This document shows positions 3,446-9,523 of a stretch of 64,000 nt of DNA, piece by piece. The translations under genes were made by a program, and so were the position numbers. Each line of letters begins with the position of its first letter. Within the stretch, counting starts at the first letter, position 1. Under the pieces are notes generated by a model. That model was not told where the DNA came from. It ran no database searches and worked only from the letters and a program-made list of their open reading frames with translations. This DNA comes from an uncultured Kordiimonas sp. (GTDB taxonomy: Bacteria > Pseudomonadota > Alphaproteobacteria > Sphingomonadales > Kordiimonadaceae), in assembly GCA_947500295.1 (NCBI GenBank), contig CANMRM010000001.1, forward strand, positions 682,001 through 746,000, written 5' to 3'.

Positions 3446-4849
3446 CTAGAAAAACAGCACAGACACAAACACGGCAGTAATCGCGACCGGGCAGACGTAT
3501 TTTACCAGAAAATAGTATTTCCGGAATGCCCCGTCGTTGAGCGCGAGCTCATCCATGGCGTTCTTGCGGCTGATGAACCAGCCAGAGAAAATCGCAATGA
3601 ACAGGCCGCCTGCCGGCATCATGATATTGTCCGTCAGATATCCCTTTGCAGTCATGAAATTCACGCCGAAGACCGATACATCGCCGAGCAGGTTGTTGGT
3701 TTGGCCCCAGGCCGACAGCAAACCGATTGCCGTCACAAGAAAGCCGATGAGCACCGCGATATTGGGTCTGCGGCCACCTGTGCGCTCTTCAACAAATGAC
3801 ACCATTGGCTCGATCAGGGATATGGCGCTCGTGATAGCGGCAAACGCGAGCAGGAAAAAGAAGGCAGGTCCAACAATGGCGCCGCCTGTCATTTGTCCAA
3901 ATGCAATGGGCAGCGTTATGAAAACGAGGCCGACATTTTCATCCGGATTTAAGCCCACCGCATAAACGATTGGGAAAATCGCGAGCCCGGCCATCAGGGC
4001 AACGGCACTGTCGGCAAAGGTAATGGTAGCTGCTGATCTGGCGATGTTTACGTCTTTGGTGAGGTAGGAGCCATAAGTCATAATGGTTCCCATACCCAGG
4101 GACAGTGAGAAAAACGCGAGGCCAAGCGCGTTTAACACCCGGGTGATGGTAAAGGTCTGAATTTCGGTGCCGGTCACAGGATCGATGGTTGTGACAAAAA
4201 ACAGGGTGCTGAAATCCGGCTGGAACAGAAACTTTAGCGCGGCGGCAAGATCGCCCGCCACGGCTGCATATAGCACCATACCAATCAGGAGAACAAAGAG
4301 GGTGGGCATCAGGAGTTTTACAGCTTTTTCAAGGCCTGCCTTTACCCCTTGTGCCACAATGGCGACAGTGATTGCCATGAATGCCACATGCCAGACAACG
4401 GGCTCCACCGGGTCACCTGCCAGGGCATTGAAGGCAGCGCGCGACGTGTCAGCGTCGAACCCGGAAAACCCCAGGGTGGCCTTGGCGATATATGCCAGCA
4501 CCCAGCCGCCCACCACGGAATAATAGGTCAAAATCAAAAAGCCGCCGATGACGCCGGACCAGCCCAGCAATACCCAGTATTTGCTGCGCCCTTCCTCCCG
4601 GGCGACTTGCTCCATGGCATAGACGGGTGACCTTTGTGCCCTGCGACCGATTGAAAGCTCCGCCATCAATACCGGCAGACCAATCAGGAAAACAAATACC
4701 AGATAAAAGAGCACAAAAGCGCCGCCACCGTTCAGGCCGGCCTGGTAGGGAAACTTCCAGATGTTGCCAAGACCGACGGCGCTGCCAACGGCAGCGAGCA
4801 TAAATGTCCAGCGTGAGGACCAATGAGCATGGTGTGGTGTCGTTGCCAT
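3446..4849 (-). CDS. Sodium:neurotransmitter symporter family (NSS) transporter 1
   Basis: Sodium-dependent amino-acid-type symporter of the LeuT/MhsT (NSS) fold, 467 residues, about twelve helices. The TM1 signature VGSAVGLGNIWKFPYQAG is intact. I start it at the ATG preceded by GGGGGAG eight bases upstream; a longer frame has no such site. It carries an extra loop of about 17 residues between TM5 and TM6 (around FVTTIDPVTGTEIQ) that its neighbour lacks. With the next gene it forms a same-strand tandem pair of paralogues, but a terminator separates them, so this gene has its own promoter or depends on read-through. Substrate unknown. Confidence 0.9.
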   Translation of the reverse strand: MATTPHHAHWSSRWTFMLAAVGSAVGLGNIWKFPYQAGLNGGGAFVLFYLVFVFLIGLPVLMAELSIGRRAQRSPVYAMEQVAREEGRSKYWVLLGWSGVIGGFLILTYYSVVGGWVLAYIAKATLGFSGFDADTSRAAFNALAGDPVEPVVWHVAFMAITVAIVAQGVKAGLEKAVKLLMPTLFVLLIGMVLYAAVAGDLAAALKFLFQPDFSTLFFVTTIDPVTGTEIQTFTITRVLNALGLAFFSLSLGMGTIMTYGSYLTKDVNIARSAATITFADSAVALMAGLAIFPIVYAVGLNPDENVGLVFITLPIAFGQMTGGAIVGPAFFFLLAFAAITSAISLIEPMVSFVEERTGGRRPNIAVLIGFLVTAIGLLSAWGQTNNLLGDVSVFGVNFMTAKGYLTDNIMMPAGGLFIAIFSGWFISRKNAMDELALNDGAFRKYYFLVKYVCPVAITAVFVSVLFF

Positions 4850-4911
4850 TGTCTTAACTCCCCCATAAGGTCCCGCTGACCGGTCCCCAGCATGATCATC
4901 TGTTCCGACCA

Positions 4912-4938
4912 TAAAAAAGGGGCCACATGGCCCCTCTT
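4912..4938 (-). terminator. Rho-independent terminator after the second NSS gene
   Basis: On the minus strand a perfect 8-base-pair stem (4928-4935 with 4918-4925, two-base loop) is followed by six T residues. It sits 25 bases after the stop of the 4963-6330 gene and separates the two symporter genes. Confidence 0.85.
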
Positions 4939-4962: not shown

Positions 4963-6330
4963 TTAACCGGCAATAACGGTGTTGTAGATGATGGACACAA
5001 ACACCGCACCCACCGCGACCGGGCAAACATACCGTACGAGGAAGTACCAGATTTTGAAGGTACCTTCTTCCATCGTCAGTTCTTCCATCATGTTCTTGCG
5101 GCTGATGAACCAGCCAACAAAGATGGCGATGAACATGCCGCCAAGCGGCATCATGATGTTGTTGGTGATGAAGTCCTTGAGGCCCATGAAGTCGAGACCA
5201 AAGATGCTAATGTTGCCAAGAACGTTACCGCTTTGGCCCCAGGCTGACAGGGTTCCCATGGCAAAAATGCCGGTGCCGATATAAACGGCGACTTTTTTGC
5301 GGTCGATGCCAGTACGTTCTTCAACGTAGGACACTGCTGGTTCCAGGAGCGAGATCGCGCTGGTAACAGCCGCGACAGTCAGCAGGAAGAAAAACAGGGT
5401 TCCGACAATCACGCCGCCCGGCATCTGGCCAAACGCAATTGGCAGAGTGGTAAACACCAGACCAACGCTTTGGCCCGGGTTCAGGCCGTAGGCAAATACG
5501 ATAGGGAATATCGCCAGACCTGCGAGCAACGCGACGCCACTGTCGGCTGCGGCAATGGTTACCGCTGACTGCGGAATGTTCATGTCTTTGGTAAGATACG
5601 AGCCGTAGGTCATGATAGAACCGAGCGCGAGCGACAGCGAGAAAAACGCGAGCCCGAGCGCCTGCAGCACCGTGTTCACATTCAGTTTGCCCCAGTCAGG
5701 ATTGAACAGGAAATTCAGTGCCGCTGCGAAGTCAGCGGTGATGGCGGAGTAGAGCATCAGGCCAACCAGCAGTACAAAAAGCGCCGGCATCAGGAAGGTT
5801 ACGGCCTTTTCAAGCCCGCCCTGCACGCCGCGCGAGACGATACCAATAGTAATGGCCAGGAAAGCAAAATGAGCAATGATTGGATTAACCGGATCGGTAA
5901 CAAAATTGCCGAACGTCTGGGTGGACATCGCCGCGTCATACCCGGAAAAGCCCGACAGGGCTTTCAGCAGATAGGCCAGCACCCATCCGCCAACCACGGA
6001 ATAGAAGCTGAGAACGATCACACCGCCCAACACACCGGACCAGCCAACGATAGCCCAGGCTTTGCTGCGGCCTTCCTCGGCTGCAATCTTGGCCATCGAC
6101 CCAATCGGCGACAATTGTCCCCGGCGCCCCAGCGACAGCTCGGCAATCAGAACCGGCAGGCCGACAATGAAGACAAATGCGAGGTAAACCAGCACAAACG
6201 CGCCGCCGCCGCCTTCGCCCGCTTCGTATGGGAATTTCCAGATGTTACCAAGCCCGACGGCACTGCCGACTGCAGCCAGCAAAAAAGTCCAGCGCGACGA
6301 CCAGTGCGCATGTTGTGTAGGTCCAGCCAT
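4963..6330 (-). CDS. Sodium:neurotransmitter symporter family (NSS) transporter 2
   Basis: Paralogue of the neighbouring symporter: 455 residues, twelve predicted helices, TM1 motif VGSAVGLGNIWKFPYEAG. Na+-coupled uptake of an amino acid or similar small molecule is the family role. Two ATGs lie close together; AGGGGAG abuts the first directly and sits nine bases before the second, so the second (MAGPTQHAHW) is the likely start. The two proteins stay alignable over nearly their whole length, which points to a tandem duplication followed by divergence, probably to different substrates. Confidence 0.9.
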   Translation of the reverse strand: MAGPTQHAHWSSRWTFLLAAVGSAVGLGNIWKFPYEAGEGGGGAFVLVYLAFVFIVGLPVLIAELSLGRRGQLSPIGSMAKIAAEEGRSKAWAIVGWSGVLGGVIVLSFYSVVGGWVLAYLLKALSGFSGYDAAMSTQTFGNFVTDPVNPIIAHFAFLAITIGIVSRGVQGGLEKAVTFLMPALFVLLVGLMLYSAITADFAAALNFLFNPDWGKLNVNTVLQALGLAFFSLSLALGSIMTYGSYLTKDMNIPQSAVTIAAADSGVALLAGLAIFPIVFAYGLNPGQSVGLVFTTLPIAFGQMPGGVIVGTLFFFLLTVAAVTSAISLLEPAVSYVEERTGIDRKKVAVYIGTGIFAMGTLSAWGQSGNVLGNISIFGLDFMGLKDFITNNIMMPLGGMFIAIFVGWFISRKNMMEELTMEEGTFKIWYFLVRYVCPVAVGAVFVSIIYNTVIAG

Positions 6331-6448
6331 GGATCCCATCTCCCCTAAAAGATTTTTATTTGTTGCGCCCTTTGCCGGGCGCCCCCCTTTAGTCGCGTCA
6401 TGCTGCTGTGCCAGCCAGCGACAGTACCTGCCGCAGCTTTAGCCTCCG

Positions 6449-7258
6449 CTAGCGCGATGTGTCAATAACGGCGCAATATTCCGCCTGGCTTTTAACAGCG
6501 TTACACAGCCTGTTTGCGTCTGCCCGATCGCTGACCCGTACACCAAGCCGAACAGCAAGACTACCGCTTACATCCAGTTCCCACTGATCGATAATGCCGG
6601 CGAGTGCCGGATATCGGGTTTCGAGCGTTGATTTGTTTTTCATCGCATTGTCCATCGACCGGTAACTCGCAAGATGCACGAACCACTGACCCAGCGGTGA
6701 CTGGCTTGCAGGGCGCGCAACGGTGCGCGGCGGGCCTGACGCAAAACTTGCAGGAAACTTACGACCGTCAACCACGCGTGTTGGCCCGGACTGGGGAATG
6801 CCCTGATGCAGGCCCGGCACAGGAGATAAATCCATATCCATCGCGGTCAATAGCTCGGACAGGGCAGCCAGGCGGCGTGCGGCTTCGTCTGCCACCGGAC
6901 CATTTGCGAGCACCCGGTCGGAGCACCTTGCCATCACCCTGTCAGGAGATCCGGATTGCATAACGCCCGCATACAACAGCCGTGCACGCGGGCCGGCACC
7001 CGCTTCTTCCAGCGCAAGAGCAGTATAAAACTGGTCCGTCGCGGACACCAAAGGTTCTGCAATAAGGGTATCAACCACCTCCTGCGCACGGCCCTGACAC
7101 AGGGCGGCCTGCAGGTCAGGGGTCATTTCCTGCAAAGTACCGCCGCTGGAACGAGATCCCGGGCCTGAGGGGCTTAGCATGCCGCAGGCAGCAACAAGCG
7201 CCAGTGGCATGAGTTTAAGGGAAGACAGGAAGAGCGAGCCGAGAGGTGTTTGTGCCAT
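6449..7258 (-). CDS. SPOR-domain lipoprotein
   Basis: Exported protein of 269 residues. The N-terminus ends in a lipobox (LVAAC, Cys25), so it is probably a lipoprotein. The middle is low in motifs; residues about 190-268 form a SPOR domain (begins GQWFVHLASYRS, ends before CAVIDTSR), which in other proteins binds peptidoglycan lacking stem peptides, often at the septum. It begins four bases after the stop of the carbonic-anhydrase-like gene, so the two are one operon. The upstream in-frame ATG inside that gene would spoil the signal sequence, so I use the second ATG. Confidence 0.8.
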   Translation of the reverse strand: MAQTPLGSLFLSSLKLMPLALVAACGMLSPSGPGSRSSGGTLQEMTPDLQAALCQGRAQEVVDTLIAEPLVSATDQFYTALALEEAGAGPRARLLYAGVMQSGSPDRVMARCSDRVLANGPVADEAARRLAALSELLTAMDMDLSPVPGLHQGIPQSGPTRVVDGRKFPASFASGPPRTVARPASQSPLGQWFVHLASYRSMDNAMKNKSTLETRYPALAGIIDQWELDVSGSLAVRLGVRVSDRADANRLCNAVKSQAEYCAVIDTSR

Positions 7259-7262
7259 TGTT

Positions 7263-8024
7263 CTATTGTCCACGCGCATCCAGGATCAACCGGTTTCCGC
7301 GCCGCTGCAACGGGCGGGCGTTATCCGCACCGACAACACCTTTGATCAGGTTAATCTGTTCCGATGATGCCTCTATCGGTTGCTTGTAGATATACCAATT
7401 TACACCTTCACCGCACGGGGGCATGGTCAGCGACCCTACATATCGATAGTAGTCTCTATTGTCGGGCATCAAATCACGCGCATTGATCAGGACACTTTCC
7501 TGACGGTTGCGCTGGTCGGGTTCAAGCGGCATATGCGGCATCAGTTCTGACAAGGCACGGTTTTCACGGCCTTCTTTAACCATGGCAACCACGATCGCCC
7601 GGTCTCCGTTGGAGGCCCTGTGCAAAAACTGGATCGACATCGGGTGGCGCTCTCCGTCGATGGTGTGTTCGGCTGGCGTCCGGAAGACAAAACCGTTCAG
7701 GGCCATTACTTTTTTGCCAACGCGTAAGTAGCTGCCGTTTTCATAGTCCATGGCAACCATCACGCGCAGATGAGCAAGATTGAGCGCTGATACCGTATAA
7801 TCTGGCCGCAAACGGTTCATCCTTGCAGGCTCTGTGCCCTCAATATTGATGGGGGACTGCATCTGGCCAACGGCACATATTGTGTTGGCATCGGAGAGCG
7901 AATGCCAGCTGTCGGGGCCATTGGAACCTTGATAGCTCCAGTTGTCTTGCGCTGTGGCAGAAGATGCCATCATTGCTAAGGCCGCCGCGATGCCGACGGT
8001 TTTGCTCACCCTACTGGATACCAT
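7263..8024 (-). CDS. Alpha-carbonic-anhydrase-like protein, zinc ligands lost
   Basis: Exported protein of 253 residues with a signal peptide ending near ATA-QDN. The alpha-carbonic-anhydrase fold is clear: WSYQGSNGPDSW, CAVGQMQSPINI and SLTMPPCGEGVNW, with the usual disulfide pair Cys50-Cys204. The zinc site is gone. In the segment matching FHFHxPSEH it reads FVFRTPAEH (Val113, Arg115), and where ExHLVH is expected it reads SIQFLH (Gln132). The threonine that normally positions the zinc hydroxide (Thr200) remains. CO2 hydration is therefore unlikely; a binding or structural role is inferred. GGAGGG before the ATG supports this start. Operon with a SPOR lipoprotein. Confidence 0.85.
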   Translation of the reverse strand: MVSSRVSKTVGIAAALAMMASSATAQDNWSYQGSNGPDSWHSLSDANTICAVGQMQSPINIEGTEPARMNRLRPDYTVSALNLAHLRVMVAMDYENGSYLRVGKKVMALNGFVFRTPAEHTIDGERHPMSIQFLHRASNGDRAIVVAMVKEGRENRALSELMPHMPLEPDQRNRQESVLINARDLMPDNRDYYRYVGSLTMPPCGEGVNWYIYKQPIEASSEQINLIKGVVGADNARPLQRRGNRLILDARGQ

Positions 8025-8080
8025 TCTGCCCTCCAAAAACACCAGGAAACACCCACAGCCGCAAGGCTACACGCGCAAGC

Positions 8081-9523
8081 CTAGCTTGAAAAGCCCGTTT
8101 CTCGGTGGATCTTCTGTGCAAGTCTCTGAAGTGCAGTGTCAATTTCCGTTTCTCCCAGGTTGGCAAAGCCTATCATCAGCCCTTGTTGCGGTTTGGTTTG
8201 CTGGTAACAGCGGGATACCGGGATCGCCCCGATGCCACAGGCCTGCGCCATGCCAGCCAGTTTTTCGTCTTTCAAGTTTGATGCCAGTAGTGCAGTGCGG
8301 CACCAGGCAAGCAAATGAAGTCCGGCATCTGACTGCTGGAAATTCAGCCAGTGCGCAAGATGTCTATGTGCTGATGCTTCAAATATTGCTTTGCGCTGCG
8401 CATGAATTTTACGGAGGCGCCGGAGATGACGCGTAAATTCACCATCTTCCATGAAGGCCTGTAGCACCTGCTGGTTGGCAATTGACGGGAAACTGTCAAT
8501 GGCGACGCGAAGTCGGCAAACCGGTTCAACCAGGTGCTCCGGCAGCGCCAGATAACCGAGCCGCAGCGCCGGAAAGAGTGATTTGGAGAAGGTGCCGCCG
8601 TACACCACCCGCCCGCCGCCATCAATCCCTTGAAGAGAATTCAGCGGGCGGCCAGCATAGCGAAACTCGCTGTCGTAATCATCTTCCAGGATCAGACTGT
8701 TTGACCTTTCCGCCCAGGCGAGCAGTTCAAGCCGACGGCCGTATGGCATGGTCAGGCCAAGCGGGTACTGGCGGGAGGGACTGGTGACAAGCAGCCCAGC
8801 TGCCGCGTCCTCTGTTTTGTCAGGGGGTATGGCGCCGTCTTCATCCACTCCGGTAAACCGAACCTGGCGACCGCTGGCTCGCGCTGCCGAGAGCATGCCG
8901 TCATATCCCGGGTCTTCCATAATGACTGCGTCCTCCAACCCCAGGACGGAGGAAGCTACCAGATAGAGCCCCTGTTGAAGTCCGGAGACAATCATCAGCT
9001 GTTCTGGTTTGCAGCTGACATTTCGCGATTGCCCAAGATAGTCGACGATGGCCTGGCGCAGGGGGAGGTAACCCATCGGGTCGCTATGATACATCAGCTT
9101 GATATTTAGTCTTCGCGCGCTCCTGCCTGCGACCCTGGCCCATTTGTCGGCAGGAAAATGGTCAAGCGCCGGCATTCCGGAATGAAGCGTAGCCGTCGAC
9201 GGTTTGGTGCGAGACGTCGATGTGATTTCTGGGTCGGCTGAGAGCGCGACAAGGGTGTCAGGCATGAATGCCGCGACAAAAGTACCCGCGCCCCGAACGG
9301 CTTCCAAATACCCTTCTGCAACCAACTGATCATACGCTTCCGTTACGGTGACGCGTGCTACACCGAGCTCCGTAGCGAGCTTTCTGCTGGCGGGAAGCTT
9401 GGTCCCCGCCGTCAGTGCTCCCGACAGGACTGCGCCCCTAATATGCTTATGCAGCTGCTTCTGCAGGGACGTTTCTGAGGTGGTGTCGAGAGATATGTTC
9501 CAGAGCGTTGTGCTGACGGTCAC
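8081..9523 (-). CDS. MocR/PdxR-type regulator (GntR wHTH fused to aminotransferase fold)
   Basis: Transcription regulator of 480 residues. Residues about 18-85 form a GntR winged helix (KLPASRKLATELGVARVTV); about 115-475 form a fold-type-I aminotransferase domain with the PLP lysine Lys314 in GTFSKSLFPALRLGY and the cofactor aspartate region ILEDDYDSEFRY. MocR proteins sense PLP or an amino-acid adduct of it. It starts at a GTG with AGGG upstream and is divergent from a small ORF and a PNPOx-family gene, a common arrangement in which the regulator controls its neighbour. Its ligand could be PLP itself (PdxR-like). Confidence 0.88.
   Translation of the reverse strand: MTVSTTLWNISLDTTSETSLQKQLHKHIRGAVLSGALTAGTKLPASRKLATELGVARVTVTEAYDQLVAEGYLEAVRGAGTFVAAFMPDTLVALSADPEITSTSRTKPSTATLHSGMPALDHFPADKWARVAGRSARRLNIKLMYHSDPMGYLPLRQAIVDYLGQSRNVSCKPEQLMIVSGLQQGLYLVASSVLGLEDAVIMEDPGYDGMLSAARASGRQVRFTGVDEDGAIPPDKTEDAAAGLLVTSPSRQYPLGLTMPYGRRLELLAWAERSNSLILEDDYDSEFRYAGRPLNSLQGIDGGGRVVYGGTFSKSLFPALRLGYLALPEHLVEPVCRLRVAIDSFPSIANQQVLQAFMEDGEFTRHLRRLRKIHAQRKAIFEASAHRHLAHWLNFQQSDAGLHLLAWCRTALLASNLKDEKLAGMAQACGIGAIPVSRCYQQTKPQQGLMIGFANLGETEIDTALQRLAQKIHRETGFSS

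Follow-up and report, generated by a model that had tools for sequence, protein, structure and literature searches.

A carbonic anhydrase-like protein lacking the zinc-binding histidines in Kordiimonas, and graded loss of these ligands beside a gene for a putative SPOR-like lipoprotein

Carbonic anhydrase folds without zinc

The animal carbonic anhydrase (CA)-related proteins (CARPs) CA VIII, X and XI keep the alpha-CA fold and have lost zinc-binding histidines. According to the available excerpts, the first zinc histidine is replaced by arginine and the third by glutamine in CA X and XI (PMC4265532), and a coral CARP carries Tyr at position 133 and Arg at 135 (PMC4981384). In the literature found, as far as the excerpts of these articles extend, zinc-less CA folds are described in animals only (PMC4265532, PMC4981384, PMC9032886, PMC2873310). 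The word "bacteria" is absent from the main text of PMC2873310, and in the excerpts of PMC7662607, which concerns bacterial alpha-CAs, "acatalytic" appears solely in the reference list. No description of a bacterial zinc-less alpha-CA was found in the literature searched, subscription journals being mostly outside its scope. In the initial annotation of this locus such proteins were said to be little described in bacteria.

The protein considered here is encoded by an uncultured Kordiimonas sp., within a 64,000-nucleotide stretch of DNA analysed as a whole (hereafter the window). Like the animal proteins, it keeps the alpha-CA fold and has lost the zinc histidines. It has Gln at the third histidine, as do CA X and XI (excerpts of PMC4265532), and Arg at the second, the place that the coral Arg takes by its spacing (excerpts of PMC4981384), whereas the Arg of CA X and XI lies at the first. 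Unlike animal CARPs, it is bacterial, carries a Sec-like signal, matches bacterial alpha-CAs far better (E 2e-50) than it matches human CA I (E 4e-16), and belongs to a family in which the state of the zinc site still varies among species. By similarity rank alone, the trees comprising bacterial rows only, it does not share descent with the animal CARP VIII/X/XI clade.

Three other described groups bear on this locus. The bacterial alpha-CAs (Thermovibrio 4c3t, Persephonella 6im0, Neisseria 1kop) share with the window protein the sequence family, the disulfide cysteines, E106 and the SLTxPPC and Trp209 motifs, and are also the top fold matches of its model; in contrast to them, it has no zinc triad, its pocket columns are relaxed, and it has invariant residues specific to its family. 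Dioscorin from yam tuber (4twl) is a CA-fold protein matched both by sequence (E 1.8e-28) and by fold (E 2.2e-13); unlike the window protein, it is a plant storage protein. For a yam storage protein, activities besides CA are reported in the available part of PMC7358276. RlpA-type SPOR-domain lipoproteins resemble the product of the neighbouring gene in its putative lipoprotein nature and its C-terminal SPOR-like domain, but that product has no other Pfam domain, has His in place of the SPOR Gln, and scores weakly against Pfam.

The Kordiimonas protein and its relatives

The gene (Table 1) is an intact open reading frame for 253 amino acids with an ATG start, a GTG at 8042 being a possible alternative. 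Its product begins with a predicted Sec-like signal peptide (approximately residues 1-26, ending near ...SSATAQ, as read by eye). The match to Pfam PF00194 (Carb_anhydrase) spans positions 1-250 of the 254-position profile (E 3.1e-26; 93 bits, cut-off 27), a full-domain match that places the protein among alpha-CA homologues. Among solved structures, phmmer ranks 6im0 (E 2.3e-50) and 4c3t (E 1.4e-47) highest, both of them bacterial alpha-CAs, human CA I matching much more weakly, and the nearest named relatives are two uncultured Kordiimonas, with 77 and 75% protein identity. Both disulfide cysteines are retained, C50 in the place of C23 and C204 in that of C203. An AlphaFold2 model built from a ten-sequence alignment is of moderate quality (pLDDT 61, pTM 0.64); its best Foldseek match is 4c3t (E 1.8e-17, TM 0.62/0.68, rmsd 7.8), and the 50 matches listed consist of dioscorin and of carbonic anhydrases, some of them variants. 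The predicted alpha-CA fold is assigned mainly on sequence homology, the model being modest.

Table 1. Features of the CA-like locus, in window coordinates
Feature	Position	Strand	Basis
alpha-Carbonic anhydrase homologue, zinc-less	7263..8024	minus	PF00194, phmmer, ligand-site table
V113 codon GTC, place of zinc ligand H94	7686..7688	minus	arithmetic from ATG 8024, alignments
R115 codon CGG, place of zinc ligand H96	7680..7682	minus	arithmetic, alignments
Q132 codon CAG, place of zinc ligand H119	7629..7631	minus	arithmetic, alignments
Putative lipoprotein, C-terminal SPOR-like domain, partner gene	6449..7279	minus	PF05036, adjacency in 27/27
Sodium:neurotransmitter-symporter-family transporter, third cluster gene	4963..6339	minus	PF00209, E 6.1e-44
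MocR/PdxR-type regulator, upstream of CA gene	8081..9523	minus	GntR and aminotransferase domains; NF052282 PdxR

The zinc ligands are H94, H96 and H119 in the numbering of human CA II, which is used below. In a gap-free alignment of this region with bacterial alpha-CAs, FHFH becomes FVFR and EAH becomes SIQ, so that the three zinc histidines of an active alpha-CA are replaced by Val113, Arg115 and Gln132. The initial annotation had made this same reading, together with the retention of the fold motifs and disulfide cysteines in an open frame rather than a broken gene, and each of these points is borne out by the alignment, by the Pfam score and cysteines given above, and by the intact frame with its low dN/dS (0.08-0.13 in four pairs; see below). 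An alternative alignment that restores three ligands is ruled out, because the protein contains no HxH motif and the ligand region aligns without gaps. A sequencing or assembly error is likewise ruled out, since the V/T-R-Q state is common to seven genomes of the genus, the window's own (L001) and six further ones (L026-L031). Homologues with an intact triad, which had been regarded beforehand as a possible sign of such an error, do exist (5 of 27 syntenic orthologues), but with six other genomes sharing V/T-R-Q they do not indicate one.

All 29 available genomes of the window's family were searched. A single PF00194 gene occurs in 28 of them (G024 has none), and 27 carry a syntenic orthologue; this set of 27 leaves out the non-syntenic alpha-CA of G026 (L005, with an intact HHH triad) and L007, an HHH gene from another family. 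Three zinc histidines are retained in 5 of these orthologues, two in 3, one in 9 and none in 10. H96 is present in every one of the 12 partially depleted orthologues. Where no zinc histidine is left, position 96 is Arg (nine) or Lys (one), position 119 is always Gln, and position 94 is V, T or E. Outside the ligands, E106, H107, C23, C203, P201, P202 and W209 are kept in 27/27, T199 in 24/27 with Ser in the other three, and E117 has become Ser in all seven V/T-R-Q members. None of the 28 PF00194 genes of the family has an internal stop codon. In the broad sense of a CA-related protein, with at least one zinc histidine lost and fold residues kept under selection, the window protein is one.

In a tree of 64 rows built without the three ligand columns, in which L112 has a very long branch, the 27 orthologues form one clade (support 100/99). 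With loss taken as irreversible, the full triad disappears 13 times on the gene tree, including 7 times within the window's family. Counted by ligand over this tree, there are 11 losses of H94, to various residues, six of H96, always to Arg or Lys (Lys in one tip), and 12 of H119, 11 to Gln and one to Glu. Unordered parsimony on the same tree requires 11 changes. For the 22 genomes having both genes, an RpoB tree made by a quick method, with 8 of its 21 inner forks open, gives 5 irreversible losses or 3 unordered changes. Because neither tree is fully supported at its inner forks, these counts are approximate. Under a model of single-nucleotide changes from His codons with a transition bias of 1 to 4, the repeats would arise by chance with P 2e-6 to 5e-9 for H119Q and P 4e-6 to 5e-4 for H96R. 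Outside the family, L117 (HRQ) has lost H96 and kept H94, a counterexample to H96 being lost last. Within the family, loss of the zinc ligands is recurrent and graded.

Zinc loss unique to the window's genome or family is ruled out by the wider surveys. PF00194 is present in 32 of 385 genomes of the class and 62 of 398 of the phylum. Among 34 class controls (which exclude the window's gene, L007 of G044, and the fragment L118), 9 are without the full triad (HHQ, DHH, THQ, QRQ, EHQ, DRQ twice, HRQ, EHH), as are 3 of 62 phylum controls (NHH, QHQ, RHQ); the latter include nine Alphaproteobacteria (L174-L182), exclude the fragment L206 and the 155-aa partial L203 with unreliable ligand columns, and are readable at all three columns. 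The triad is missing in 22/27 family orthologues vs 12/96 alpha-CAs elsewhere (Fisher P 2e-11, with related sequences treated as independent). The intact relatives (5/27), the graded and recurrent loss, and the 9/34 cases in other Alphaproteobacteria were beyond the reach of the initial annotation.

Degraded zinc sites in other Alphaproteobacteria include those of L110 (DRQ), L111 (DRQ), L103 (QRQ), L117 (HRQ), L108 (EHQ) and L102 (THQ). In L112, L098 and L097 the gene after the alpha-CA is chemoreceptor-like, with MCPsignal, HAMP or four-helix sensor domains (below cut-off in L097), and in L094, L100 and L114 it is chemoreceptor-like by appearance; such pairs perhaps tie CO2 or pH sensing to a periplasmic CA. 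Seven IMG/VR contigs (L119-L125) carry closely similar, intact alpha-CA genes of enterobacterial look, which may be host DNA from the edges of prophages. In a plasmid collection, 181 records contain relatives of the window protein, all below 60% identity and many on plasmids predicted to be conjugative.

The conserved gene cluster

In all 27 orthologous loci the CA-like gene lies directly upstream of the SPOR-like gene, whose product in the window has a lipobox (LVAAC, as read by eye). Translation of the window's SPOR-like gene could start at ATG 7279, with a 17-bp overlap with the CA gene, or at ATG 7258, just past the CA stop; in 27/27 loci a possible start lies within 16 bp, on either side, of the final base of the CA gene. 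Translational overlap as a conserved device was not upheld: the overlapping ATG sits within the codons of a conserved ILDA stretch, and a further ATG lies a few bases past the CA stop in many genomes. These 27 genomes also each contain a homologue of the SPOR-like protein (E 3e-19 or better). As to the family genomes lacking the orthologue, G026 has only a weak SPOR-like homologue (5e-5) elsewhere, and G024 has none. The SPOR-like frame of L058 (G014, a draft genome) is broken near its 3' end, perhaps by an assembly fault.

The SPOR assignment itself is marginal. Against PF05036 (cut-off 21) the window's protein scores 22.1 bits as a whole and 25.4 for the domain alone. Eight of 14 members match the profile at E<=1, and among the scores obtained only the window's passes the cut-off; in single scans of ten members, nine from the family (the window's not among them) and one distant, five matched below the cut-off and five, the distant one included, did not match. 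The conserved SPOR Gln, as given in the available part of PMC6895207, is His in 14/14 members. No solved SPOR structure was matched by the protein, and Pfam found no further domain in it. SPOR domains bind denuded peptidoglycan (PMC6895207, available part), and a location in the envelope is therefore proposed for the predicted lipoprotein.

A pairing of alpha-CA and lipoprotein recurs with intact-triad alpha-CAs, as in four loci of genus g69 in the distant family f44 (L104, L106, L107, L115) the next gene encodes a putative lipoprotein with a C-terminus that shows homology to the SPOR-like domain of Kordiimonas (blastp ~1e-7 in a small local set; unrecognised by Pfam). The remaining 30 class controls (of 34) gave no SPOR-like neighbour in their flanks apart from a single weak match (L089), and the flanks of 63 phylum loci gave none; zinc loss elsewhere therefore needs a different cause. 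The available flanks of the six degraded genes listed above likewise gave no SPOR-like neighbour, the contig of L117 ending at the gene.

A symporter homologue comes next in the cluster in 25/27 loci, the contigs of the other two ending first. The window has symporter-family genes in tandem after the CA-SPOR pair (3446-4912 and 4963-6339), and in 24 other orthologue loci one only was recorded, two contigs ending too early. Upstream, the MocR/PdxR-type regulator (418.9 bits against NF052282 PdxR, cut-off 320) holds the same place in 19 loci of the window's genus and two of genus g4, and was not seen in the other six, one of which, L008, has only ~3 kb upstream.

Selection and the probable role of the protein

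The frame of the CA-like gene is under purifying selection. Among pairs of zinc-ligand-poor orthologues with unsaturated dS, dN/dS is 0.11 (L026/L030), 0.13 (L026/L031), 0.08 (L010/L012) and 0.08 (L014/L015); three further such pairs with dS >1.7 give 0.05, 0.11 and 0.16. The pairs L001/L028 and L001/L029 were left out as saturated, leaving these seven calculable. The values are similar to those of the neighbouring SPOR-like and MocR genes. The one intact-triad pair in the comparison, L004/L019, gives 0.25, above the unsaturated zinc-poor pairs.

Selection on the frame is accompanied by a relaxed pocket. Seventeen columns (15 residue and two gap columns), largely catalytic positions, are conserved in the controls and variable in the family, a relaxed column being one in which 85% or more of the 27 intact controls agree and no residue reaches a 60% majority in the family; they include the places of N62, H64, T65, Q92, H94, E117 and V121. 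Conversely, T64, L72, V78, E160, N181, R183, D184, Y211, K214 and R242 are invariant in 27/27 family members and variable in the controls. Because these family-specific residues hold in the five intact-triad members too, they suggest that a second function preceded the loss of catalysis in the window's family, although their invariance may be due in part to common descent, the 27 being one clade and the controls diverse.

These data favour, as somewhat more likely than not, a CA-like protein that is a zinc-free, inactive, exported binding or structural module, probably docked to the SPOR-like lipoprotein. Purifying selection, the relaxed pocket and the tie to the lipoprotein gene in 27/27 thus lend support to the earlier proposal of an exported binding or scaffold protein rather than an enzyme. 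The window protein would on this reading have lost zinc and CO2 hydration, and it would act with its lipoprotein partner at the cell wall; adjacency of the two genes is by itself no proof of contact.

Retention of the protein for a ligand of its own, such as a glycan, a small molecule or an anion in the emptied pocket, with R115 and Q132 in a new site and SPOR playing no part, is a rather unlikely alternative. The convergent R96 and Q119 do suggest selected pocket chemistry, E106 (27/27) and T199 (24/27) are kept, and the matches include dioscorin (4twl), a CA-fold protein of plants whose structure was solved with ascorbate; yet the other pocket columns vary even among the zinc-free members, residue 94 being V, T or E, and the CA-like gene always adjoins the lipoprotein gene. 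More doubtful still is a role for the protein in regulating or titrating either a second carbonic anhydrase or the adjacent sodium symporter. A symporter gene does follow in 25/27 loci and beta-CAs (PF00484) are present in 26/29 family genomes, the window's genome (4.27 Mb) having two beta-CA genes beside its one PF00194 gene, but G003 (VRQ), G007 (HHH) and G025 (NHH) have the orthologue and no beta-CA by PF00484, and an exported alpha-CA would not meet a presumably cytosolic beta-CA. With VRQ, HHH and NHH alpha-CAs in these three genomes, the presence of beta-CAs is also unsupported as an explanation for the loss in the alpha-CA.

Binding of another metal, or of zinc through altered ligands, with some activity kept, is improbable for the window protein. 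In human CA II, carboxamide replacements such as H94N and H119Q do not abolish zinc binding, and the HHQ and NHH members could behave likewise; E106 and T199 are also retained. Against this, V and R are unusual as metal ligands, the window protein has no HxH motif, and all seven V/T-R-Q members have Ser at the place of E117. Least credible is a dispensable gene drifting towards a pseudogene and retained solely through its position in an operon. The repeated loss of catalytic residues and the absence of the orthologue from two family genomes would fit such decay, but it is rejected on dN/dS, which is 0.05-0.16 in the seven zinc-poor pairs (three with high dS) and similar to that of the neighbours; moreover, none of the 28 family genes contains a stop, and the scaffold residues are invariant.

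For the docked, zinc-free module favoured here, a tentative course of events can be proposed. An ancestral enzyme whose gene adjoined that of the SPOR-like lipoprotein would have acquired a second role outside catalysis, most likely that of docking onto this lipoprotein at the cell wall. The second role would then have carried selection while the catalytic pocket drifted, and zinc ligands would have been lost several times independently; within the family, the first to go would have been H119, replaced by Gln, and H94, replaced by differing residues, and the last H96, replaced by an Arg that perhaps substitutes for the positive charge of zinc in the emptied pocket. It is possible, if less than probable, that the protein was in this manner recruited as the structural partner of a cell-wall lipoprotein before zinc was independently lost several times, with H96 last, Arg or Lys standing in for the charge of the metal, and Gln at 119. 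Both the order of these events and the role of the Arg are inferred.

A bacterial analogue of the animal CA-related proteins, with its intermediates surviving, is the best reading of the window's family. If this is true, the family would be a living time series of the conversion of an enzyme to a pseudoenzyme, convergent with the animal proteins, in which orthologues with three, two, one and zero zinc histidines coexist in one gene cluster. The order of loss, the point at which activity is lost and the reason for which a dead enzyme is retained would be directly testable across these orthologues, and the name "carbonic anhydrase" would be misleading for those of the 22/27 family members that prove inactive.
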